Shown here one piece after another: positions 1 to 11,731 of a stretch of 64,000 nucleotides of DNA. Each line of letters starts with the position of its first letter. Within the stretch, counting starts at the first letter, position 1. The notes below the pieces were generated by a model. The model saw nothing but the letters and a program-made list of their open reading frames with translations, was not told where the DNA came from and made no database searches. This DNA comes from an uncultured Eubacteriales bacterium (GTDB lineage Bacteria > Bacillota > Clostridia > Oscillospirales > CAG-272): contig CASGAQ010000003.1 of NCBI GenBank assembly GCA_949299535.1, forward strand, positions 1-64,000, in the 5' to 3' direction. A program made the translations under genes and the position numbers.

Positions 1-20
1 TTTAATTATACCAAAAAGCA

Positions 21-58
21 AGCGGATGCTCAATACCTTTCGGTAAATAGCATCCGCT
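21..58. terminator. Bidirectional hairpin terminator ending the surface-protein operon
   Basis: The arms AGCGGATGCT (21-30) and AGCATCCGCT (49-58) pair perfectly around an 18-nt loop. A T-run follows on the plus strand and GCTTTTTGG follows on the minus strand, so it can stop the leftward surface operon and any rightward gene left of the window. Confidence 0.7.
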
Positions 59-69
59 TTTTCTGTTTT

Positions 70-100
70 GGGGCTATCTTAATGAGACAGCCCCTTTTTT
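70..100 (+). terminator. Rho-independent terminator for a gene left of the window
   Basis: GGGGCTATCTT pairs with GAGACAGCCCC with small mismatches, followed by a seven-T run on the plus strand. There is no T-run on the minus strand, so it serves rightward transcription. Confidence 0.6.
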
Positions 101-642
101 TATTTTACGAGAGTAGTATTTATATAGAAGAAACCGCGGCTCGTTTCATCATCGGGAGAATAAGTCGCTATCTTTATCATTACCGGAGTTTGCTCTTTGC
201 TCAGTCTTTTCTTCAGAGTCAAACTTTCCACATATTCTCCGGGACAAATAAAGCCGCTCTTGCCGATAAGTTTATCAGGCTCCGCCGCCGTGATCTCGCC
301 ATTTTCATTATATGTGAATTTCACCGTGTATATCTCGGCGCGGATATATAAATCGTTCGTTTCGGGATTTGTAAGATATAACTTAACTTCTTTTCCGTCG
401 ATTATATCAGGAGCGCCGCATATGGCGATGTCGCAAATATCCGTTGCGCTGTAAACGCTGTATCCGTATTCTTCGGGAAGCTCACCCGGAGTGCCGACAG
501 TTCTTTTCGAATCCAAAAGCTCCGGCTCCCTCGTTATCATGAAAGCAAACAATAAAATCGAAAGTGATATTATCAAGAGCGCAACCACACCGAATATTAT
601 ATTACGAACTAATGAAGTATAACATATCTTTTTTCCAGTCAT
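100..642 (-). CDS. Single-pass membrane protein with extracytoplasmic beta domain, last gene of the surface operon
   Basis: Function unknown. The protein has a short basic N-terminus, one hydrophobic helix at about residues 14-36 and an extracytoplasmic domain of about 140 residues. The start at 642 is preferred because AGAGGA lies 5-6 nt upstream; an upstream in-frame ATG at 660 lacks a ribosome site. Its C-terminal domain resembles that of the membrane protein at the other end of the operon (8699-10189). Both have a Pro-Glu-Thr segment, a G-x-I-x-PG-x-Y or similar turn and a final strand with a Y-[SD]-P-[DE] motif. It lies 46 nt after the upstream gene. A role as membrane partner or anchor for the secreted proteins is inference. 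Confidence 0.75.
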   Translation of the reverse strand: MTGKKICYTSLVRNIIFGVVALLIISLSILLFAFMITREPELLDSKRTVGTPGELPEEYGYSVYSATDICDIAICGAPDIIDGKEVKLYLTNPETNDLYIRAEIYTVKFTYNENGEITAAEPDKLIGKSGFICPGEYVESLTLKKRLSKEQTPVMIKIATYSPDDETSRGFFYINTTLVK

Positions 643-688
643 AAAAATCCTCTTTAACATCTATGCTGAGTCACTCAATAAAATTGAT

Positions 689-1387
689 TTAATTCTGTCC
701 GCTTTCATTATCGGAAGATAACGATATTTCCAAAGTAAGTTGACCTATAACGGCAAGATTAGAACTAACAAAATCCTGTACGATTTCATTATCGGAAGTA
801 ATAGTCGTAATAGTCGGTTTTCCTGAAAGCGAAAAATAAATTTCTTCATTACCGTTTTCAGTCATATCAAAAGAATATGAATTGGGATTATTTTCATTCA
901 AACAATTTACCGATAAAAAATCGTTGCTTGAGTAAAAAAACATTTTAACGCAGTCGGCATCAAGATTAACGCAGTTGGCATCAAGATTACCCAATTCAAA
1001 ATTCAAATTTATACGAACAGGATCTTCGATAGACATGATATTAACGCTTATCTTATTTGCGTTTCCGTCAAAGCCATACCAACCGGGACTGCCTTGTTTA
1101 GTGTCGGCGGAAGGATCGGCAGAACTTTGATTGCTTTTATAACAAAGATCATTTACGTCCCATGTGCCGTAGTCATAATAGAAGCCGAAAGAGCCGAATT
1201 CTATCTCTATTGCATATATATATCGCTCGTTATTTCCAGGATCAATATCAACAGATGGAGAAGTTGTATCCTCCGTTGTTTCATCGACAGCAAACGTGTT
1301 TAACGTACAAGTCAGAATCAAAATCAATGCCGTCAAAACAGCGCAAAGAGACTTTGCGGTATTATTCAGTTTTTCGAAAGATTTCAT
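689..1387 (-). CDS. Secreted protein, divergent YAVDIEYG/WDVN family
   Basis: Function unknown. A signal peptide covers about residues 1-33 (basic start, a long Leu/Ile core, cleavage near TFAVDE). The mature part contains YAIEIEFG, an aromatic strand and TWDVN, matching the module found in the neighbouring secreted proteins, and ends with SLSGKPTI followed by a G-x-LTLEI strand. The NHSD motif is replaced by a different segment. The ribosome site AGAGGTG lies 7 nt before the ATG. There is no sortase motif or SLH domain, so any surface retention would depend on partners. It sits 27 nt after the preceding gene in the same transcription unit. Confidence 0.8.
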   Translation of the reverse strand: MKSFEKLNNTAKSLCAVLTALILILTCTLNTFAVDETTEDTTSPSVDIDPGNNERYIYAIEIEFGSFGFYYDYGTWDVNDLCYKSNQSSADPSADTKQGSPGWYGFDGNANKISVNIMSIEDPVRINLNFELGNLDANCVNLDADCVKMFFYSSNDFLSVNCLNENNPNSYSFDMTENGNEEIYFSLSGKPTITTITSDNEIVQDFVSSNLAVIGQLTLEISLSSDNESGQN

Positions 1388-1414: not shown

Positions 1415-1999
1415 TCAATTTCCGTAGAAATATTCCCCGTTTGTGGCATAACCGCTTGCAGGTATTATATCCACGCAGACATAGATGCGTTTTTCGCCTT
1501 TCCATGAATCAACATACGGGTAATTTTCTATATTTATATTCATTTTTTCAAAATAAGGTTCCGATTCATGTGCAACGGGACAAGAATCTATAAAAGTATT
1601 TTCCAAACCTTTTCTCAAGATAACAACACCGCTTTTATCGAAATCTTCTTTGTTTAAATGAACTGTAACCGAAATAGGAGTATCGGAGTGATTTATAACG
1701 ATAAGTTCAACCTCCGACTGTTTTTTTCCCAACATCAGCCAATCACCGTAAGATATGCTTGATTCACCCGTTTCGGTGTTTGTTTCGACGCCGCGAAGAT
1801 TAAAAGAGAATTTCATGCTGTAATATATTATATCGCAGGAATAGCGGTATTTGTACCCCGTAATTTCAACATTTATAAGAATATCCGATTCAGCCGAATC
1901 GATGTCGGCGGCAAAGGATAAAAAATTCAGCATAGTAAAACAGCCTATCAACACAATAACAACCGCTGTTTTCACAAAATACGCCGCACATAATTTCAT
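1415..1999 (-). CDS. Secreted protein, most divergent member of the operon family
   Basis: Function unknown. An N-terminal hydrophobic signal segment (about residues 8-30) is followed by a domain of about 160 residues. It keeps the order of the family module: YRYSCDIIYY in place of YAVDIEYG, then an aromatic strand, then IVINHSDTPISV, which is a good match to the NHSD signature. The WDVN motif is not recognisable; a GDW occurs at the equivalent place. An AAAGGCGG ribosome site precedes the ATG by about 9 nt. It lies between two clearer family members, so I treat it as a paralogue on context plus motif. Confidence 0.75.
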   Translation of the reverse strand: MKLCAAYFVKTAVVIVLIGCFTMLNFLSFAADIDSAESDILINVEITGYKYRYSCDIIYYSMKFSFNLRGVETNTETGESSISYGDWLMLGKKQSEVELIVINHSDTPISVTVHLNKEDFDKSGVVILRKGLENTFIDSCPVAHESEPYFEKMNINIENYPYVDSWKGEKRIYVCVDIIPASGYATNGEYFYGN

Positions 2000-2161: not shown

Positions 2162-2761
2162 TCAGGTGGCAGGAGCTATGGTTACAGTCAATGTACCGAG
2201 AGTAATACTGTTTATTTGAGAAATATTGGGTTTACCTGTAAGTCCGTAAGTAACAGTATCACTAGGAGCTTTGCCGCTTTGTGGACAACCAGGAATTTCA
2301 ACTTTCGTATCTGCCACATAACCATCAAACTCAAGATTAATGTTTCCGTATTTATCAACATCAAAATCTTCTTTGCGTTCAAATTTAGCTGCATAGGTAA
2401 TAGCCTTGTCAGAGTGGTTGTCTATCGTTACTGTGGAGCTTGCAGGAGACCATACACCACCGTCGTTACCAATTATATATTCGTGCTTGTTGGGATCCCA
2501 TGTAGCACCTGTGCTATATCTAAAATTCGTATCAGAGAAAGTGATATCAACTGCATATTTACTTAAAAAGTTGCCATCTACTTCGAAAGTGATATCAGCA
2601 GATCCTGTACCACCGGTCCAACCTTCTGCAGTGGCACCTGTAAGATTTCCAATGCCTGTTTCCTCATGGATACCGTCGCCGGTTACTGCTGCGAAAGCTG
2701 TTACTGTGCAAAGAGCCGCGATCATGCAAACAGCAACAAAGATTGAAAGGATTTTTTTCAT
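2162..2761 (-). CDS. Secreted protein with YAVDI/WDPN/NHSD module
   Basis: Function unknown. A signal peptide of about 24 residues (MKKILSIF start, Ala-rich cleavage at AFAA) precedes one copy of the operon's shared module. KYAVDITF is followed by a strand, TWDPN, then VTIDNHSD, and it ends in GLTGKPNI plus LGTLTVTI. This is a clean stand-alone version of the module at the C-terminus of the 1442-residue protein. A strong AAGGAGG lies 5 nt before the ATG, so translation should be high. The upstream 148-nt gap contains an imperfect hairpin and four 11-bp repeats. A structural subunit of a surface layer or fibre is a plausible inference only. Confidence 0.85.
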   Translation of the reverse strand: MKKILSIFVAVCMIAALCTVTAFAAVTGDGIHEETGIGNLTGATAEGWTGGTGSADITFEVDGNFLSKYAVDITFSDTNFRYSTGATWDPNKHEYIIGNDGGVWSPASSTVTIDNHSDKAITYAAKFERKEDFDVDKYGNINLEFDGYVADTKVEIPGCPQSGKAPSDTVTYGLTGKPNISQINSITLGTLTVTIAPAT

Positions 2762-2909: not shown

Positions 2910-3539
2910 TCAAGCGCCTGCTGGTGTTGAGTCTTTGGAAATAGTTACCACAATCGTTGCAACAGGCAATTTCATAGAATCTCCATCTGTTTCAGAATCT
3001 GTTGCAAAATAGTTGTTAATTACATCACTCCAAGTACCGGAGTCAGCAGGTTGAACGAAAAACTCGACAGGTGTTGATAAGGAACTTACTTCATCGTCGG
3101 TGGCGTTGGGTTCTGTCTTATTAATTGTCTCCTTAATAGCTGAAAATTCCGTTGTCAAAGTACACCCATTTATAGCTGTTACGTTAATATTCTGATATAC
3201 CGGAAGGTCAGAGTGGTTGACTATTTTTATTGTAGTTAATATTTCTTGCGGTGTATTGTCTGCTTCTCCACCTTGTGCAACATACTTATGCGCGTTAACA
3301 TCCCAAACCCAACCCGTATCAAATGTAAAATCCACCTGACCGTATTCGATGTCTACTGCATAACGATGCTGGACACCTCCTGTAATATTCAGAGTGATGT
3401 TTGTTTCACTCCTTTCCGGTTCAAAAGTGGGTACACCGTCTGAACCACCAACAATTCTTGCTGCGAATGAGTTCATGCTGAATGCCGAAATGATAAGTGC
3501 GGATGAAAGAAGTGTCGCCCAAATTTTTTGTTTTTTCAT
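2910..3539 (-). CDS. Secreted protein with YAVDIEYG/WDVN/NHSD module
   Basis: Function unknown. A signal peptide of about 26 residues ends at NSFAA. The module is textbook for this operon: HRYAVDIEYG, a Phe/Thr strand, VWDVNAHKY, then IKIVNHSDLPV. A further segment of about 90 residues is rich in Thr, Ser and Asp and contains one Cys. The final strand is IVVTI. There is no anchor motif. AAGGAG lies 8 nt before the ATG. The gene is followed by the 11-bp tandem repeats before the next family member. Its close similarity to the 3634-4239 product points to tandem duplication followed by divergence. Confidence 0.85.
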   Translation of the reverse strand: MKKQKIWATLLSSALIISAFSMNSFAARIVGGSDGVPTFEPERSETNITLNITGGVQHRYAVDIEYGQVDFTFDTGWVWDVNAHKYVAQGGEADNTPQEILTTIKIVNHSDLPVYQNINVTAINGCTLTTEFSAIKETINKTEPNATDDEVSSLSTPVEFFVQPADSGTWSDVINNYFATDSETDGDSMKLPVATIVVTISKDSTPAGA

Positions 3540-3633: not shown

Positions 3634-4239
3634 CTACGCTCCTTTTTCTACCGTCACGGTCAATGAACCGAGACGGTATATGCCTCCGTCGGGAGTTATG
3701 TTAGACAAAACATGCTTTACTATAGCGTCCCATGAACTCGACGTCGACGGTGTGATCTGAACCCTCATTGTTTTTGAAGAAGGGTTGCTGCTATTGACTT
3801 GTGTGCCTGGAATGGCCAGATAATCCGACGAATCTCCATATTGCACGCTTTCTTCCAGCTCCACACCATCTGCTAAATTGATATTGGCATAAACTTTAAC
3901 TTCGACGTCAGAGTGATTTATAAATTTACAATCAAAAGAGTAAGAAGAGTCAGCGGTTCCGTTTACTTCATATTCATAATTGTTGACATCCCAAACCGCC
4001 TCGCCGTTAAACGTCATGCTAAAACCTTCTGCGGGATATTCCAGATCCACCGCATATCGATGTTCTGTTTCCACAACTTTAAGTTTTATTTCTGTTGTGG
4101 AATCCGTATCAGAAATTATGGAATCCACACCGTTTTCGCCGCCTATCAATTTATCAACAGAAGCACCGAGGGTATGCATTGAAAACATACCCAATGCAAG
4201 AAAAACAGCTATGAAATTTTTTATAATATATTTTTTCAT
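3634..4239 (-). CDS. Secreted protein with YAVDLEY/WDVN/NHSD module
   Basis: Function unknown. The start at 4239 is preferred because GAGAGG is 8 nt upstream; an ATG at 4245 is too close. The signal peptide (MKKYIIKN start, core about residues 8-24) precedes a short linker with GGENGVDSI. The module follows: HRYAVDLEY, an aromatic strand, VWDVNNYEY, then CKFINHSDVEV and a terminal LGSLTVTV strand. The GGENGV/GGSDGV linker is shared with the 2910-3539 product, supporting recent common origin. The gap to the upstream 1442-residue gene is 34 nt, so the two are almost certainly co-transcribed. Confidence 0.85.
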   Translation of the reverse strand: MKKYIIKNFIAVFLALGMFSMHTLGASVDKLIGGENGVDSIISDTDSTTEIKLKVVETEHRYAVDLEYPAEGFSMTFNGEAVWDVNNYEYEVNGTADSSYSFDCKFINHSDVEVKVYANINLADGVELEESVQYGDSSDYLAIPGTQVNSSNPSSKTMRVQITPSTSSSWDAIVKHVLSNITPDGGIYRLGSLTVTVEKGA

Positions 4240-4273
4240 AATCATATCCTCTCATCTGTGCCTTTGTTTTTGG

Positions 4274-7200
4274 TCAAGGTGTATTTGTTGTGGTTGTCTT
4301 TAATATCGTTACCGTGATCCAACCTACTGTCGTAAACTCATCTGACGCACCGATCTGCGGAGTTCCCGTAAGTTCAAGTGTCACATAGTATTCTCCCGCT
4401 GTACCTTGAGTTTCCTCGCCCTCGGGAGGAGTTGCCTTATCGACAGTAAAAAATTGCGGTGTTTCTGTCTGATCTGGCTGTTTAATTTCAGTCTTTTTAC
4501 CTTTAGGGTAATGATACAAAATCGATTCGATACCCATTTCGCTATCCCCTTGCATTTGGTAAAGAAAATGTATGCCGGATTCTATCGAGAATTTTACTTC
4601 TCTGTTTGAACGGTTTTTAATTGTTATTTTGTTATTTATGTCATCAAATCCACCCCATCTACTTTCGTTGGGAACCTCCTCATAACTATAGTTGTTCACA
4701 TCCCAAACAGTCTTGGAATATGTAAACTCCATATTTCCGTATTCGATATCAACTGCATATTTTGCTCCACGCTCACCGCTGCCTATCGTACGAGCTTTTA
4801 TGTGCTCAAGATGCTTTGTGCTGCTCGGAGAATGATAATCCACTCTTTTATCGGTGCCATCGAAAATAAGGTATGTGTCTTCTGTCGTCGGGAAGAATTT
4901 GCGCCATTGACCCGTTTCCGTTTTTTTGAACATTGCGCCCGTAGTATCATACGATATCTGTCCCGGAACAAGATAGTAGTAGTAGTTTCCCGAATCTTTT
5001 TTTAATCCGGTTAAAACATAGTTTTTACCGCTTTCTGCAGACAAAACGGGGTTGGTTATTTTGATTTTTACATCGCTATAGCCTATCGTTTTATCATTAT
5101 ATGCGACAGTATATCCATCGGCATCCTCGTCAAGAGTTACCGTATCACCCTGTATTACATCGTCAAAATATATTGCACCGGGGTTTCCAATTGTCGGGGT
5201 AAATTCAGCAAGATCTTTTACGGTCGTATGCCAGTTTTGAATAGATACTATCTTTATCTCTCGCTTGGATATTGTGAAGCACTTCATACCGTAAGCTTCG
5301 TACTTCTTCGTCTCCAGCTCGGCTACAACAAAGTATGTTCCTGCGTCTTTGGGTGCGGAGGAAAGGAGTGTTTTTGCTTCGCCTTCATCATAAGTTCCGT
5401 TGCCATCAGCATCATCATAACTGTAATAAGTATAGTTTATACTATTGCGATCCTCGTCGGTGAGGATTGATGATATATCTTCCTTATTGTAGGTAACTGT
5501 TCCATTTACAGTTAATATTATGTTGAATTTTCGCTCTATTTCTTCAGGGGTGTCATCGTTATTACTTGAGTATCGTTTTATCGTTACTATATAATTGTCT
5601 TTTCTGTAAACTTCATAAGCTTCTTTTCCGCCGATAATGCCTGCGTTTTTCAAGTCTTCCCTTGCTTTGTCCAAATCGCTAAGATCATATGTCGAACTTA
5701 CAAGATTAAAATAATTAAAATCAACTATATTATAAACAGTTCCGTCTCGACCTCGTTTAATACCTATTGAACGATCGTTTTCATTTTCGACGATGTAATA
5801 CCGGTACCGGCCAATCTCAAAATAATTATCATTAGGTATTTCCTGAACATATTTACCTGTGATATAGTACTTTGTATTAACTGAAATCTGTTGATCTCCA
5901 TATGAAATCAACGTTGTATATTGTATATAATGCTGACCATCATCATCTGTACCAGTCGATTCTTTTGCAACTTGAACATTAAAACCATACCGTCCATATG
6001 TGTAAATATAACTTGCGATGTCATTTGTATCCTGTTCGATGCTGATCCCGGCATCGTATTGTGTCGGATCATCACCGGTAAAACTATACATAAACATACC
6101 GTTGACCTCAGCAGAAACCGCTGCACCGTCATAGGTTTTATCCATATCAGCGATTCCGAACTCGTATTCCGGCTTTACGACAATAACTATTCTGTATGTA
6201 ACAGTTACCGTTATTTCTTCACCATTGATGTCCGTTGTTTTGTCCGTTTTCTTGAACCAAACAACCTCGTAACCGCTTGTGATATCAACATCACATTCCG
6301 CGGTGTATGTTATTGGATCTGCTGCCGTTTGCTCCACTTTATAGACTCCATAGTTTAAAACAGCATCTCCTATATAATACAAGGATTCATATGTAGTAGT
6401 TTTTCCTTCGTCCGTTGTTTCTGTATTCGAAAAATAAAGATCAATATGAACTCTTTCGGTTCCTGTCGGCATATAAACAGTATATCCGTATGTGCCTCTG
6501 CTGAAAACATCATCTCCTATATAGTCATACGACGAATCAAGTGTGTTATCGCTGTTGTATTTGAACACGTCTATATTCAAAAATGAACCTGCTGTCGGGT
6601 CGACGCTCATATTCGGAGTCTCACGATTCGTAGAGTTAGGACCGAAGGGAACATGCGTCTGAGAAATCGGGTAGTCTTCCGTACCATCATGGAGTTCCGA
6701 TGAATTAGGACCGGACTCCGTCTTTTTTATAAGAGCATATATGTCGTCATCCTTTGCCGAGGCATCTTTATAAGGAGCATGAAGAACATAACGACCGCCG
6801 TACAATTCAGGCAGCGGCAGTGAGATTGCAACCGCTTTATAATTTCCGGGAACAGTATATGTTCTTATCGGGTTATTGGTATCATAATAATATGTAAGTG
6901 GCTCTATGTTGGGACCAGGATAATAAATACTTCCTTTATCCTGCGTAATTTGCAAATCGGAATTTCCAATTACTGCATTGTTATCATGCCCGGGCTTAAC
7001 ACGCAGAGGATTTCCGTATTCGTCAACTCTATAATATTTTCCTTGTTCGCTATCGCAAGCATAATAGCGAATTTGACCTTTCTCATCTCTGGTTCCGGGG
7101 CTGTACGTAGGAGAGTTGATAATCCCATCCAAAAGGTCTGAAGCAGTGGTGTTTACAAGCATGGGATTTCCGAGTTTGTCTCTTTTTACAGGGTACAGTT

Positions 7201-8602
7201 TGAATGTACGTTGGTTTATATTCTCCGCAAATCTGATAAAGTATATATATCCGTTAGGATCAACAATTATGGAAGGCGCTTCATCAATATTTGTACCTTT
7301 ATTCGATATAGCGTACTTGGAAAAACTTGCCGCAGAAACATAAGCCGCAGAATTTACCGTTATGCTGTTATCAGCCATATCGGTGTTTTTACCGGAACCT
7401 ATTGCCGCAGTAGCTTCATTGGCTCCCTCCGGCTCGCCGGACTGCGCTGTTATATCGCCGCCGTTGAGCGTTATGGACAATCCGGAAGTTTTTCCTTCTG
7501 CGCCGCCGTTCAATATGGTAACATTATCCGTAGTACCTATACCTGCCGAAGCCGTGCCGCCGTAAGCCTTTACGGTGCCGCCGTTTATCTCTATATGATA
7601 AGAGTTTGAAAAAGTATCACTTTCCTTATTATTTGTCGAGTCACCGTCGCCGATACCTGCGGCAAATCTGCCGCCGACCGCCGTTATTTTTCCGCCGTTT
7701 ATCACTATCTGTGAAGACGTTGCCGCAGAGTTTACACCACCGCCTATACCCGCCGCGGTGTGTCCGCCGACCGCCGTTATTTTTCCGCTGTTTATGATTA
7801 TCTCTCCGGGCGTGCCGACTGTATAACTGCCCCCTGACGTGATTACGGAAGTGTTGTAAGAAGTTCCGCCGCCGATACCCGCGCCGCCGCCGTTCTCCTG
7901 ATCCATATATCCAGTGGGACCTTCATATGCAGCACCGACTTCGAAAATCGGGGTTCCTGCAATGGCAGCCGCAAGCATTTCTTTCGGCGTAGTAGGAACA
8001 CCTTTGTCTTTTCCATAATATTGATATGCGCCGAAAGCATAGAGATCGTCTGCGCCGATTATTGTAAGCGAAGCGCCGCTGTCGACCTGTATGCCCGCAT
8101 ATCCGCCATAATAAGCCCAAGTTTCACGCAACACGGAATCTGAATTTGATACATACCAGCCGTTGGTACCTGCGCGGAACACACATTCACCATCGAATCT
8201 GGCATTGACTTTCGCTCCGCCTGTTATGAGGAACGGCACCGTCGGAACATATACTCCGCCGCCTGCACGAGTCCAGCCAAGTTGAACGCCTGCGGCATAT
8301 AACTGATCGGCAGTAGCACCAGATACACTTTCATATCTGTTTATGGTCACTTTGTCGAATATGATATTGACCTCAATATCTCCGTTTACAGTAACGGAGT
8401 AAGCTCCGTCCGGGATGACAAAGTTGCTCGTACCCTTGTTATCTATCAAAGCCTGATTGATAACTATTACAGGCGAATCTTTAGTAAAATCAAATGTATA
8501 TGAATCTGCCGCAAATACATCTATCTCGAAAGGAGGTACAAACGACAATAACATACAGAGCGTGAGCGCAAAAACCATGACACGCTTAATACTTGATCTC
8601 AT
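4274..8602 (-). CDS. Large secreted surface protein: Gly-rich beta-helix, Ig-like repeats and C-terminal family module
   Basis: 1442 residues. A signal peptide (about 1-32) is followed by a region with regular INGGKITAVGG and AAGIGGG repeats (about 170-430), typical of beta-helix carbohydrate-binding-domain surface proteins. A long middle part holds Ig-like units, including KTYDGAAVSAEVNG and VTYNKEDISS with trailing GTYFVVAELE-type strands, reminiscent of bacterial MBG domains. Residues from about 1277 to the end form the operon's shared module: KYAVDIEYG, VWDVNNYSY, ITIKNRSN, then LTGTPQI and WITVTI. There is no LPXTG, SLH or transmembrane anchor. AAAGGAGT precedes the ATG. It is the natural candidate for the large structural or adhesive component, with the small proteins as stand-alone versions of its last domain (inference). 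Confidence 0.85.
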   Translation of the reverse strand: MRSSIKRVMVFALTLCMLLSFVPPFEIDVFAADSYTFDFTKDSPVIVINQALIDNKGTSNFVIPDGAYSVTVNGDIEVNIIFDKVTINRYESVSGATADQLYAAGVQLGWTRAGGGVYVPTVPFLITGGAKVNARFDGECVFRAGTNGWYVSNSDSVLRETWAYYGGYAGIQVDSGASLTIIGADDLYAFGAYQYYGKDKGVPTTPKEMLAAAIAGTPIFEVGAAYEGPTGYMDQENGGGAGIGGGTSYNTSVITSGGSYTVGTPGEIIINSGKITAVGGHTAAGIGGGVNSAATSSQIVINGGKITAVGGRFAAGIGDGDSTNNKESDTFSNSYHIEINGGTVKAYGGTASAGIGTTDNVTILNGGAEGKTSGLSITLNGGDITAQSGEPEGANEATAAIGSGKNTDMADNSITVNSAAYVSAASFSKYAISNKGTNIDEAPSIIVDPNGYIYFIRFAENINQRTFKLYPVKRDKLGNPMLVNTTASDLLDGIINSPTYSPGTRDEKGQIRYYACDSEQGKYYRVDEYGNPLRVKPGHDNNAVIGNSDLQITQDKGSIYYPGPNIEPLTYYYDTNNPIRTYTVPGNYKAVAISLPLPELYGGRYVLHAPYKDASAKDDDIYALIKKTESGPNSSELHDGTEDYPISQTHVPFGPNSTNRETPNMSVDPTAGSFLNIDVFKYNSDNTLDSSYDYIGDDVFSRGTYGYTVYMPTGTERVHIDLYFSNTETTDEGKTTTYESLYYIGDAVLNYGVYKVEQTAADPITYTAECDVDITSGYEVVWFKKTDKTTDINGEEITVTVTYRIVIVVKPEYEFGIADMDKTYDGAAVSAEVNGMFMYSFTGDDPTQYDAGISIEQDTNDIASYIYTYGRYGFNVQVAKESTGTDDDGQHYIQYTTLISYGDQQISVNTKYYITGKYVQEIPNDNYFEIGRYRYYIVENENDRSIGIKRGRDGTVYNIVDFNYFNLVSSTYDLSDLDKAREDLKNAGIIGGKEAYEVYRKDNYIVTIKRYSSNNDDTPEEIERKFNIILTVNGTVTYNKEDISSILTDEDRNSINYTYYSYDDADGNGTYDEGEAKTLLSSAPKDAGTYFVVAELETKKYEAYGMKCFTISKREIKIVSIQNWHTTVKDLAEFTPTIGNPGAIYFDDVIQGDTVTLDEDADGYTVAYNDKTIGYSDVKIKITNPVLSAESGKNYVLTGLKKDSGNYYYYLVPGQISYDTTGAMFKKTETGQWRKFFPTTEDTYLIFDGTDKRVDYHSPSSTKHLEHIKARTIGSGERGAKYAVDIEYGNMEFTYSKTVWDVNNYSYEEVPNESRWGGFDDINNKITIKNRSNREVKFSIESGIHFLYQMQGDSEMGIESILYHYPKGKKTEIKQPDQTETPQFFTVDKATPPEGEETQGTAGEYYVTLELTGTPQIGASDEFTTVGWITVTILKTTTTNTP

Positions 8603-8698: not shown

Positions 8699-10189
8699 TC
8701 AATCTACCAATGATTTAACTATATGAACGGTAATCGGGGCGCGTGCGTTTACGACGGATTTTTCAAAAGTTTCCGGGTCATAAGCGTCGATAGTGACTAT
8801 CATTTCGTAATCGCCCTCAGGAAGCATGGTTCCGTCCGGAAGAGCCGAGAGCTGAGCAAGCTCAAGTTCGTAACCTATCTGAAGTCTTCCCGACGTGTAA
8901 AGAGTTTGATATGTACTTTCAGGATCGTAATTTCCGCTTGCTTCAAGTTCGTTCTGCTCTTCCTCGGAGCGTCCCGTTCTTCCTATCGTGCGGAGCAGTT
9001 CTGCGTCGCTTATAACTATTTTTATCACGACGTCCTGAGTAGAACGCTTCGGATTGACATAATTTATTATCGCAACGCCTGTTTCAACATTCGCATAGAC
9101 CTCTTGGTTAAGTTCAAAACTGATACGGTTCGAACCTGCGGGAGGAGGCGTCACGGGAGTATTATCCACAATGGGTTTGCCGTTCGGGTCTATCGTTATC
9201 GGTTTGTACGGAGAGTTGAAATTTTGCCAAAGAATTATACAACCTATTATCAAAAGCAAAAGGCATAACGAGAGTATGGGAAGCAGGAATAATATAATAG
9301 GTATAACTTCCGTTACTTTGCCTATGAAACAGCATCTTGCGATAGTTCCGCTGTTTTTGCCGCAGAAACCGCCGCATACGTTCTGTGCACTGACTTTGGC
9401 AATAACCGTGCAGTTAATGATATTTCCGCCGTCATTAAAAGCGCACATTCCGCCGGAAACGGAACCGTCTTTTGCATTCAAAACGCAGTCTAACGTGAGG
9501 TTTGCCACACATCCGTTCTTTATACAGCCGAAAAATCCCGCTTGAGGCAATCCTTTGGACACTATTTTGAAGTTTGATATGCGAAAACCATTGCCGTTGA
9601 AAGTACCGGTAAACGGTGTTGAATCATAAAGACCTATCGGCAGCCACTTTTTGCCGTGAAGATTTATATCCTTAGTCAGAATATACGAAGACGAGGCTGC
9701 CTCAACATCGCCGGAAGCTATTCTCTTTGCCATGGAGAAAAGCTGTTCAGCGTTGCTTATCTCGATCGCGTTTTCCGCAGAGGTTTCGAGTTTTATCTTA
9801 CCTTCTGTAAAACCGAGCGAATCAGATTTTTCATCAGGCACATACCATGTGGAAGAAAGTGACAGCTTGCTTTTTGCCTCGGCGGCATTTTTGCAGTCGA
9901 CTATAAAAGACTGGTCTATATAAAGATCGTCTTTTTTATTTTTGGAGTAACGGACAAAACCGCTGTCCTTTATCTCTCCTTTGCTGATACTGCAAAACGC
10001 GGCTATGTTCTCTTTGCCGAAAGTTCGCTTCTGTACTACCGAACGAGTTATCGAGCCGCTGTTTTCGAAAGCAAAGCCCGCGGCATTCGTCTTGTATTTT
10101 ATCTTCGAATCCGTATAGCAGTCGACTATCGTGCCGGAGTTATACGAAACAAAACCGCCAACTCTATTGGAATATGAGGAAATTTTCAT
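8699..10189 (-). CDS. GLUG/beta-helix membrane protein, first gene of the phase-variable operon
   Basis: About 496 residues from the ATG at 10189; a TTG at 10213 is an alternative, and neither has an ideal ribosome site. GLUG-type beta-helix repeats occupy about residues 11-75 (GGFVSYNSGTIVDC and similar) and about 190-292 (FTGTFNGNGF, GFFGCIKNG, GGFCGKNSGTI). A single hydrophobic helix spans about 295-320, and an Asn/Pro linker leads to a C-terminal beta domain of about 170 residues ending with a YDPET motif. There is no N-terminal signal peptide, and the N-terminal half is Cys-containing. By topology the helix repeats would lie inside the cell and the C-terminal domain outside, which is odd for GLUG proteins. 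It is the first gene reached by the invertible promoter. Confidence 0.75.
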   Translation of the reverse strand: MKISSYSNRVGGFVSYNSGTIVDCYTDSKIKYKTNAAGFAFENSGSITRSVVQKRTFGKENIAAFCSISKGEIKDSGFVRYSKNKKDDLYIDQSFIVDCKNAAEAKSKLSLSSTWYVPDEKSDSLGFTEGKIKLETSAENAIEISNAEQLFSMAKRIASGDVEAASSSYILTKDINLHGKKWLPIGLYDSTPFTGTFNGNGFRISNFKIVSKGLPQAGFFGCIKNGCVANLTLDCVLNAKDGSVSGGMCAFNDGGNIINCTVIAKVSAQNVCGGFCGKNSGTIARCCFIGKVTEVIPIILFLLPILSLCLLLLIIGCIILWQNFNSPYKPITIDPNGKPIVDNTPVTPPPAGSNRISFELNQEVYANVETGVAIINYVNPKRSTQDVVIKIVISDAELLRTIGRTGRSEEEQNELEASGNYDPESTYQTLYTSGRLQIGYELELAQLSALPDGTMLPEGDYEMIVTIDAYDPETFEKSVVNARAPITVHIVKSLVD

Positions 10190-10396
10190 ACTGTTTATCG
10201 CATCCTTTCTCAAAACCTACAGTCAAAATTTCATTCCGGCAAACGAGTGAAATCGACTGCGGAAACAAACCAAAACATAATCAGAAAATCATTTATAATT
10301 TTTAGAGGTTCCCAAAGATATTTATACTATAAAAATATACTTATATTATGATATTAAAATCAAATATGATATAGAAGTAAAAAGGTAAATATAACT

Positions 10397-10463
10397 ACAT
10401 AATATCGATTACGTTGTATTTAATGGTTGTATTTATTATACCATAAAACAATATTATAGTCAA
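10397..10463 (-). repeat. 67-bp inverted repeat, left copy (promoter P1 plus site A)
   Basis: It is a perfect reverse complement of 10695-10761. Read on the minus strand it contains promoter P1, a short initial transcribed region and recombination core A. Flanking sequence diverges at once on both sides. Confidence 0.9.
10435..10463 (-). promoter_or_regulatory. Promoter P1, facing the surface operon
   Basis: -35 TTGACT (10458-10463), an exact 17-bp spacer and -10 TATAAT (10435-10440) on the minus strand. Transcription should begin near 10428, cross core site A and run through a leader of about 240 nt into the GLUG membrane-protein gene. Confidence 0.85.
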
Positions 10464-10523
10464 TCAAAAAACTGGATAATTAGGGCTTTTTTTCTTTTTT
10501 CGGTTGTCGCACGGCTACTCAAA

Positions 10524-10567
10524 AAACGTAAATTTTATACTATATAAACGTAAATTTTATACTATAT
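10524..10567. repeat. Two perfect tandem 22-bp repeats inside the invertible segment
   Basis: The 22-bp unit beginning AAACGTAAATTTTATAC occurs at 10524-10545 and 10546-10567. Being within the segment but away from the core sites, it could bind an accessory DNA-bending or directionality protein (inference). Nearby, an imperfect 21-bp direct repeat (about 10623-10664) runs into core site B. Confidence 0.8.
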
Positions 10568-10655
10568 ATACAAGATATACGAGAATTTTTTTGAATTTGT
10601 TGATTTAAAAAATATCATTTTAGCGAAATAATACAACGCACTAGTGAAATAATAT

Positions 10656-10674
10656 AACGTAATCGATATTATGT
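10656..10674 (+). repeat. Recombination core site B
   Basis: Core AACGTAATCGATATTATGT in plus orientation, within arms ATAACGTAAT and ATTATGTAGT around an asymmetric CGAT centre. It is followed by the same 22 bp that follow site A, so A and B form the longest site-plus-flank pair. It is a direct repeat of site C, 87 bp away. Confidence 0.8.
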
Positions 10675-10694
10675 AGTTATATTTACCTTTTTAC

Positions 10695-10723
10695 TTGACT
10701 ATAATATTGTTTTATGGTATAAT
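10695..10723 (+). promoter_or_regulatory. Promoter P2, identical to P1 but facing the recombinase 3' end
   Basis: -35 TTGACT (10695-10700), a 17-bp spacer and -10 TATAAT (10718-10723) on the plus strand. Transcription would start near 10730, cross site C and run antisense into the end of the recombinase gene. Confidence 0.8.
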
Positions 10724-10761
10724 AAATACAACCATTAAATACAACGTAATCGATATTATGT
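10695..10761 (+). repeat. 67-bp inverted repeat, right copy (promoter P2 plus site C)
   Basis: It is a perfect reverse complement of 10397-10463. Sites A and C could also recombine, inverting 365 bp and swapping the two promoters without silencing the operon. Confidence 0.9.
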
Positions 10762-10764
10762 TGT
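10741..10764 (+). repeat. Recombination core site C
   Basis: The arms ACAACGTAAT and ATTATGTTGT are inverted repeats with one mismatch around CGAT, the layout of a tyrosine-recombinase crossover site. It lies 30 bp beyond the stop codon of the recombinase gene. Confidence 0.75.
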
Positions 10765-10793
10765 ACAAAATTATGCTGTATAAACACGTATTG

Positions 10794-11633
10794 TCAGAAC
10801 CGCAAAAGATCCAACATTTGAATTTGCCTGCGATGATTTTCTCCGCTTTCCATGGTATAAATTCTCGTTGTATTGACGCTGCTGTGTCCGAGGACATCGG
10901 CAAGGCGAACTATATCTCGGCAAGCGCCGTAAAACGTTCTAGCAAATAAATGGCGCAGATTATGAGGAAAAATCTTGCTTTCCTCTATGCCCGCTTCCCT
11001 GCCGAGTTTTTTCATATCATTCCATATATTAGAACGATGGAGCGGTTTTCCGTTTTTGGTAACAAAAACAGGACCGCTTTTTATATTTTTCTTTAAAACA
11101 TATATTTTTAAGGCTTTGCATAACTGACGCGGAAGAAATACCACGCGCAGTTTTCCTTTGCAGTTTATTTCCGCCTTCTCGTTTTTTACGGCCTCAACTG
11201 ATATATATTTGAGTTCAGACACTCTTATTCCTGTCGAGCATATGGTCTGTATGATGAGATTTATGCGCTCATTATTTTTCATACGCGAGGCGGAAATCAA
11301 TTTTTCATACTCGCTTTTATCAAGTTCTCTCTCCTCTGCGGCAAATATACGCCGCTGTATCTTTATGGTTTTCAATTTCATATCATGCCAATCCATATAT
11401 GAGAAAAAGCTGTTGAGCGATGATATTATGGAATTGACGCTGGCAGGGGCATACCTGTCCGAAAGAAAAGCTTTATATCGCAAAACGTCCGCTTTATCAA
11501 AATCCTTGCCGCCGAGCCACAAAGCAAATACATTTACATCTCTAATATATTTTTCGACCGTAGACCTGCTCTTTTCCTCAAATTCAAGGTGTTGTCTGAA
11601 TGAAATAATTTTTTCTTCGTATATTTTTTCCAT
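10794..11633 (-). CDS. Tyrosine site-specific recombinase, probable invertase of the promoter switch
   Basis: 279 residues. An N-terminal SAM-like core-binding domain (about 1-95) precedes a catalytic domain. All active-site residues are visible: Arg137 in STGIRVSEL, the beta-hairpin Lys in CKGKLRV (159 or 161), His224 and Arg227 in HNLRH, His250 in LGHSS, and Tyr259 in RIYTM. The start at 11633 is fixed by GGAGAGGAGA about 7 nt upstream; a longer in-frame start at 11672 has none. Tyrosine recombinases of this size next to inverted repeats carry out promoter inversion in Clostridia and Bacteroides. No transposase, excisionase or tRNA attachment site is nearby, so a local switch role is favoured over a mobile-element integrase. 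Confidence 0.88.
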   Translation of the reverse strand: MEKIYEEKIISFRQHLEFEEKSRSTVEKYIRDVNVFALWLGGKDFDKADVLRYKAFLSDRYAPASVNSIISSLNSFFSYMDWHDMKLKTIKIQRRIFAAEERELDKSEYEKLISASRMKNNERINLIIQTICSTGIRVSELKYISVEAVKNEKAEINCKGKLRVVFLPRQLCKALKIYVLKKNIKSGPVFVTKNGKPLHRSNIWNDMKKLGREAGIEESKIFPHNLRHLFARTFYGACRDIVRLADVLGHSSVNTTRIYTMESGENHRRQIQMLDLLRF

Positions 11634-11702
11634 TATATATTCTCCTCTCCCGCACTTGATAAGCCCTAACAATCGCGGCGGTAATTTTTAAATTTACTAT
11701 AT

Positions 11703-11731
11703 ATTATATATTACAGATAAGGCTTTGTTAA
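11703..11731 (-). promoter_or_regulatory. Promoter of the recombinase gene
   Basis: -35 TTAACA (11726-11731), 17-bp spacer, -10 TATAAT (11703-11708) on the minus strand. It lies outside the invertible region, so recombinase expression should not depend on switch orientation except through antisense P2. Confidence 0.7.

Follow-up and report, generated by a model that had tools for sequence, protein, structure and literature searches.

Genes and sites at the locus

The window, the whole stretch of 64,000 nucleotides that we analysed, opens with an eight-gene operon read leftward from 10189 down to 100. Its products are a membrane protein with a GLUG motif, a secreted beta-helix protein of 1442 aa, five small secreted proteins and one membrane-anchored protein. 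The contig starts about 100 bp past the last operon gene (window 1-100). Upstream of the operon lie three copies of a short site, two copies of a promoter and a gene for a tyrosine recombinase that is transcribed in the same direction as the operon. In the following list and below, ON denotes a promoter directed toward the operon and OFF one that faces the recombinase gene and enters it at its 3' end.

100..660, minus strand: gene 8 (p1), membrane-anchored extracytoplasmic protein; orthologues 31-51% identical
689..1387, minus strand: gene 7 (p2), small secreted protein, divergent member
1415..1999, minus strand: gene 6 (p3), small secreted protein, divergent member
2162..2761, minus strand: gene 5 (p4), small secreted protein of the YAVD/WDVN/NHSD family
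2910..3539, minus strand: gene 4 (p5), small secreted protein of the YAVD/WDVN/NHSD family
3634..4245, minus strand: gene 3 (p6), small secreted protein of the YAVD/WDVN/NHSD family
4274..8602, minus strand: gene 2 (p7), secreted protein of 1442 aa with signal peptide and beta-helix repeats; Pfam PF18889, E 9.4e-8
8699..10189, minus strand: gene 1 (p8), GLUG-motif region, membrane segment and extracytoplasmic domain; full-length orthologues 38-59% identical
10394..10417, minus strand: site A, operon-side flank half plus promoter-end half
10416..10655, no strand: segment X, 240 bp, between sites A and B, predicted to be invertible
10435..10463, minus strand: promoter P1, TTGACT-17-TATAAT with extended -10 TG, directed toward the operon (ON)
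10654..10677, plus strand: site B, operon-side flank half plus distal-end half; equals one predicted OFF-state junction
10695..10696, no strand: single illegitimate join with a 2-bp TT overlap between the ON-derived and the OFF-derived part, placed by exact tiling
10695..10723, plus strand: promoter P2, identical to P1, between sites B and C, running into the recombinase gene from its 3' side (OFF-type position)
10741..10764, plus strand: site C, recombinase-side flank half plus promoter-end half; equals the other predicted OFF-state junction
10794..11672, minus strand: tyrosine recombinase with XerA/XerD-like fold, in a clade of its own; Pfam PF00589, E 1.6e-27
11703..11731, minus strand: probable recombinase promoter, TTAACA-17-TATAAT, predicted by a consensus scan

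The 19-bp core AACGTAATCGATATTATGT occurs exactly at 10397-10415 (minus), 10656-10674 (plus) and 10743-10761 (plus), where the initial annotation had located it, and no further copy with up to three mismatches was found in the rest of the 1.63-Mb genome. Sites A and B end the perfect 41-bp inverted repeat that had also been described (10375-10415 / 10656-10696), but a longer repeat had been overlooked: A and C are paired perfectly over 67 bp (10397-10463 / 10695-10761) and over 77 nt at 96%. The longest perfect inverted repeat within 10300-10800 thus measures 67 bp, compared with a maximum of 13 bp in dinucleotide shuffles. Sites B and C form a direct repeat at a distance of 87 bp, and a gap of about 30 bp separates site C from the recombinase gene. 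While the arms had been drawn around an asymmetric 4-bp CGAT, comparison with relatives gives a different natural anatomy, two 9-bp arms flanking a 6-bp asymmetric spacer, which is TATCGA in the window; site A accordingly reads ACTACATAA-TATCGA-TTACGTTGT. Promoter P1 matches the consensus at 11 of 12 positions in addition to its extended -10 TG. Its earlier description as a perfect promoter pointing leftward holds for position and direction, with near-perfect being the better term, and the idea of a single promoter inside the array has to make room for the identical P2, which had been missed.

The recombinase and its clade

The recombinase retains the full catalytic set, R150, K172/K174 (the beta-hairpin lysine), H237xxR240, H263 and Y272, in an alignment to XerA-type enzymes of known structure, which together with the Pfam match bears out the claim of an adjacent tyrosine recombinase with intact R-K-HxxR-H-Y residues. 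Its true start is likely the ATG at 11633. The protein scores below the cut-offs of the XerD (121.6 bits versus 329.6), XerC (111.9 bits versus 335.15) and archaeal XerA (163 versus 220) models. In 97 related genomes, members of its clade share 39-62% identity (39-64% over all relatives compared) and other integrases are nearly all at or below 34%; the clade is present in 32 of these genomes. In a family-wide set of 395 genomes, with membership defined as E 1e-60 or better, 102 carry it, about a quarter. Named members come from Pusillibacter faecalis, Monoglobus pectinilyticus, Subdoligranulum variabile and [Clostridium] clostridioforme, all of them Clostridia, and the P. faecalis locus has an SLH-domain protein downstream. 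Searches for the switch sequence or the recombinase in viral contigs found nothing.

Inverted site pairs across the family

At its 3' end, the recombinase gene is accompanied by a pair of inverted sites in 45 of 62 clade loci, or in 45 of the 50 that had room for one; at 12 of the 17 loci without a pair, the contig ends at most 155 bp from the recombinase gene or inside it. The pair recurred in 16 of 19 further loci with room. The paired sites are 14-31 bp long in relatives, compared with 67 bp in the window, and they are spaced by 185-330 bp in most loci, a range that the 240 bp of segment X fits.

Strand exchange by tyrosine recombinases needs a matching overlap sequence between sites, and a spacer that is matched within a locus and varied between loci is the pattern expected under that requirement. 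Across loci, we counted 22 different 6-bp spacers, none of them palindromic. When sites were located by their arms alone, an exact reverse-complement spacer partner was present in 34 of the 35 loci having at least two sites; this motif-only count is free of the bias toward matching spacers that affects the site pairs, which were partly found via a search for inverted identity.

The segment holds a strong promoter in nearly all scored loci, at a distance of 13-53 bp from the arm that it faces. The assembled promoter is OFF in 29 loci and ON in 6, the window alone showing both, and the further 16 pair-bearing loci are all OFF. The total of 45 OFF versus 6 ON is a strong bias toward OFF, somewhat inflated by the counting of near-identical paralogues singly. 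The make-up of cell populations, antisense control of the recombinase and selection are candidate causes of this bias.

Two comparisons reveal interiors in opposite orientation. L034 and L036 have matching flanks on both sides, and their interiors align with a score of 143 when one is inverted and 90 when compared directly, the maximum for shuffles being 96. In genome G093, the paralogues L071 and L074 carry the interior in the orientation opposite to that in L087, L089, L090 and L092. The architecture conserved in dozens of loci, the covariation of spacers, the two promoter directions and the inverted interiors strongly support the reading of a DNA-inversion promoter switch put forward in the initial annotation.

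Two observations concern copy number. Genome G093 (loci including L071, L074, L075 and L083-L092) has about 20 recombinase copies and at least five recombinase-plus-switch cassettes that are about 99% identical, and from these sequences the cassette appears to spread within the genome. Genuine extra sites with the same spacer, as a 33-bp tandem or 55-77 bp apart, are present at L041 (G048:C29), L057 (G052:C1) and L130 (Subdoligranulum variabile), where deletions between them should be possible.

The array as a probable mosaic of two states

The array at 10200-10861 (662 bp) can be tiled without mismatch from pieces of a plain two-site switch in its ON and OFF states, using three tiles and the one join listed above:

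10200-10674: tile 1, equal to the ON form
10640-10696: tile 2, equal to the reverse complement of the operon-side OFF junction
10695-10861: tile 3, equal to the recombinase-side OFF junction

Half-sites can be combined in four ways, and sites A, B and C represent three of them. The fourth, the ON junction of the recombinase flank with the distal end (ON2, ACAACATAA-TATCGA-TTACGTTAT), is missing from the array. The three sites of the initial annotation are present as stated, but the third as a designed element gives way to a mismatch-free mosaic, and the best reading of the array is a two-site switch caught in both of its states. A designed three-site dosage switch had been our first view and was demoted to a rival after the exact tiling.

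The third site and the second promoter would stem either from an assembly chimera of mixed ON and OFF cells or from a very recent rearrangement by template switch. Both would mean that the two orientations were once present at the locus, unless a more complicated duplication made the array, and the simplest reading of the tiles is that both orientations have existed here. We lean slightly toward a chimeric contig, in which the assembler would have merged reads from ON cells with reads from OFF cells and the true locus would have two sites, which is compatible with an inverton. The exact tiling, the logic of the half-sites, the missing ON junction on the recombinase side and the single join all argue for it. 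Elsewhere in the family, contig ends cluster just 3' of the recombinase gene, as if mixed orientations tripped assemblers, the signal (12 versus 1 within 200 bp) being weak, with 4 versus 1 outside two multi-copy genomes. On the other hand, the 2-bp overlap at the join is too short for a usual k-mer assembler, and a real template switch would give an identical picture. A real array of three sites and two promoters, a rival concerning the nature of the third site only and leaving the locus an inversion switch, is a tentative alternative that we hold to be rather doubtful. The three sites share the spacer and have nearly the same arms and could recombine, and extra sites are found at other loci of the family (four sites at L041, three each at L051, L057 and L130). 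These extras are tandem duplications or independent sites, however, unlike the exact mosaic of the window; strong promoters at both ends were seen in no other scored locus; and the direct repeats B and C would make the cassette deletable by the same enzyme.

We simulated recombination among A, B and C and obtained four inversion states, in which the operon faces 1, 0, 1 or 2 promoters, and two deletion states. The count of antisense promoters directed at the recombinase gene falls as that at the operon rises, being 2, 1, 1 or 0 in the inversion states where the operon has 0, 1, 1 or 2. That the array is not only real but also functional, the operon being served by 0, 1 or 2 promoters while 2, 1 or 0 read antisense toward the recombinase gene, so that expression level and switching rate would be set jointly, seems unlikely to us.

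Proposed mechanism and alternatives

The sites, the promoter copies and the architecture of the family suggest that the locus is a recombinase-linked invertible promoter (inverton) governing the eight-gene secreted-protein operon, and we put the probability of this at about 0.87. The recombinase would act on an inverted pair of sites, one beside its own stop codon and the other beside the operon, and flip the 240-bp segment X between them. In the ON state, the near-consensus P1 would read through site A into the eight genes; in the OFF state, the same promoter would be turned round to read antisense into the recombinase gene from its 3' end, and this might lower the recombinase's own expression. 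As no intrinsic terminator was found between the recombinase gene and the operon, the OFF state may be leaky or blurred by read-through from the recombinase promoter.

We infer inversion at the window locus itself, and three accounts without it have to be weighed. The tiling from ON and OFF states could in principle stem from a real three-site array with no inversion, but this needs more steps. The sites and recombinase could also be remnants of a former switch, with the promoter fixed ON, and one relative (L094) does have a truncated recombinase beside an intact site pair; a full-length enzyme with all catalytic residues, repeats that are perfect over 41 and 67 bp, and the OFF junctions present in the contig make such a relic very unlikely for the window. 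We give least credence to a mobile-element integrase with the repeats as its attachment sites. Although an enzyme of the integrase family adjoins the direct repeats B and C, and the locus is placed differently from the operon in congeners, no other mobile-element genes were seen nearby, the 87-bp unit from B to C contains only copies of flank and promoter, and the layout in the family is a single inverted pair with a promoter, the recombinase and operon being codirectional.

The relative with the truncated gene, a congener (G002:C22, near 23448), has the intact inverted pair CCACATAATTCACATTATGTGG in front of a gene judged by eye to encode a dynamin-like GTPase. It is perhaps a switch whose own recombinase has decayed and which is now either frozen or served in trans.

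Relation to known switches

The recombinase has the XerA/XerD-like fold, and its site, two arms around a 6-bp spacer, is built as in Xer/dif systems, but the enzyme falls far short of the XerC and XerD cut-offs, and the sites of relatives form inverted pairs with locus-specific spacers. Instead of a single dif-like site per replicon, we found three clustered copies here and inverted pairs in relatives. In its arrangement, the locus resembles fimS of E. coli, where the tyrosine recombinases FimB and FimE invert a promoter segment of about 300 bp in front of an operon for a surface structure; unlike fimS, it has one recombinase, whose gene lies upstream in the same orientation and has the near site at its stop codon. 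PsrA of streptococci, the tyrosine invertase of hsdS inversions, shares about 30% identity with the window recombinase but shuffles hsdS coding segments, whereas the switch here would move a promoter.

RecV of C. difficile serves several switches distant from its own gene, some of which work after transcription starts. Likened by arrangement, the RecV switches also have short inverted repeats around a regulatory segment and a tyrosine recombinase, but each recombinase copy in the family described here has its own adjacent switch. The cwpV, flagellar (flgB), cmr and pdc switches of C. difficile place recombinase control at surface, signalling or motility targets (PMC2784873, PMC5386303, PMC5903667).

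The closest counterpart is inverton group 139 of gut Clostridia with invertase group 35, for which the pertinent passages of the source describe promoter-sized segments that nearly always have a tyrosine-type recombinase within 5 kb, repeats of 26 bp with about 205 bp between them in the example of Clostridium sp. D5, and flipping in culture backed by reads (PMC11892184). The window likewise has its tyrosine recombinase within 5 kb and agrees with group 139 in dimensions, the feature compared, and the window family is likely the same as group 139/group 35. On the strength of those passages, this kind of system, the inverton with a linked recombinase, is already described for Clostridia; new here are the target operon family and the clearer anatomy of the site. 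The same passages mention neither the operon family of the window nor an ON/OFF mosaic.

A conserved operon for secreted proteins tied to phase variation suggests that its products come under host, phage or immune selection. The family also offers a simple signature for searches: the stop codon of a recombinase gene, a pair of sites whose 6-bp spacer is specific to the locus, and a consensus promoter 13-53 bp from one arm. The window further serves as a warning that draft assemblies can present a chimera of ON and OFF states as a multi-site array, so that an assembly oddity may itself be evidence of inversion.

The operon and the genes downstream of related switches

The small secreted proteins share the pattern YAVD...WDVN...NHSD, and p7 carries a copy of their domain at its C-terminus. 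They matched no family in searches of Pfam and NCBIfam, and profile searches of the PDB returned no convincing relative either for them or for p1, whose profile likewise hit no Pfam family. A structure prediction for the small family from the window paralogues had a pLDDT of 55, too low for a fold search. The start of the first operon gene at 10189, as initially annotated, is conserved and reads MKISSYANRVGGF in congeners.

The order of the operon is kept in G005, G002, G172, G011 and G203 and partly in G281, where it meets a contig edge, and no switch-type site was found in the stretches examined at these six operons. The switch is thus not needed for operon function, as relatives carry the operon without it. 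The insertion of a cassette in front of a conserved operon was considered and dropped because the neighbourhoods differ between congeners; the same differences imply that the operon itself also moved or was acquired. An Rfam search of the window gave no match, and the 5' leader folded no better than shuffles. In two switch-less orthologous operons, L121 and L123, the leader contains short hairpins around CTATAGTTTGTT, with two copies in L123, and these are possibly a regulatory RNA element.

Downstream genes are codirectional with the recombinase at 38 of 41 clade loci. A signal-peptide-like protein, called by a simple hydropathy rule, is among the first two downstream ORFs in 31 of the 41 loci compared with 31 of 111 background pairs (p 1e-7). 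At L051, L058, L063 and L065, the genes downstream were judged by eye to form TasA/SipW-like operons, with fibre proteins of the TasA/CalY type and a signal peptidase. The first downstream secreted genes at L049, L071, L074 and L075 start with type IV prepilin-like leaders (GFTLVELIVVIAIL), which suggests that these loci encode phase-variable pilin-like proteins.
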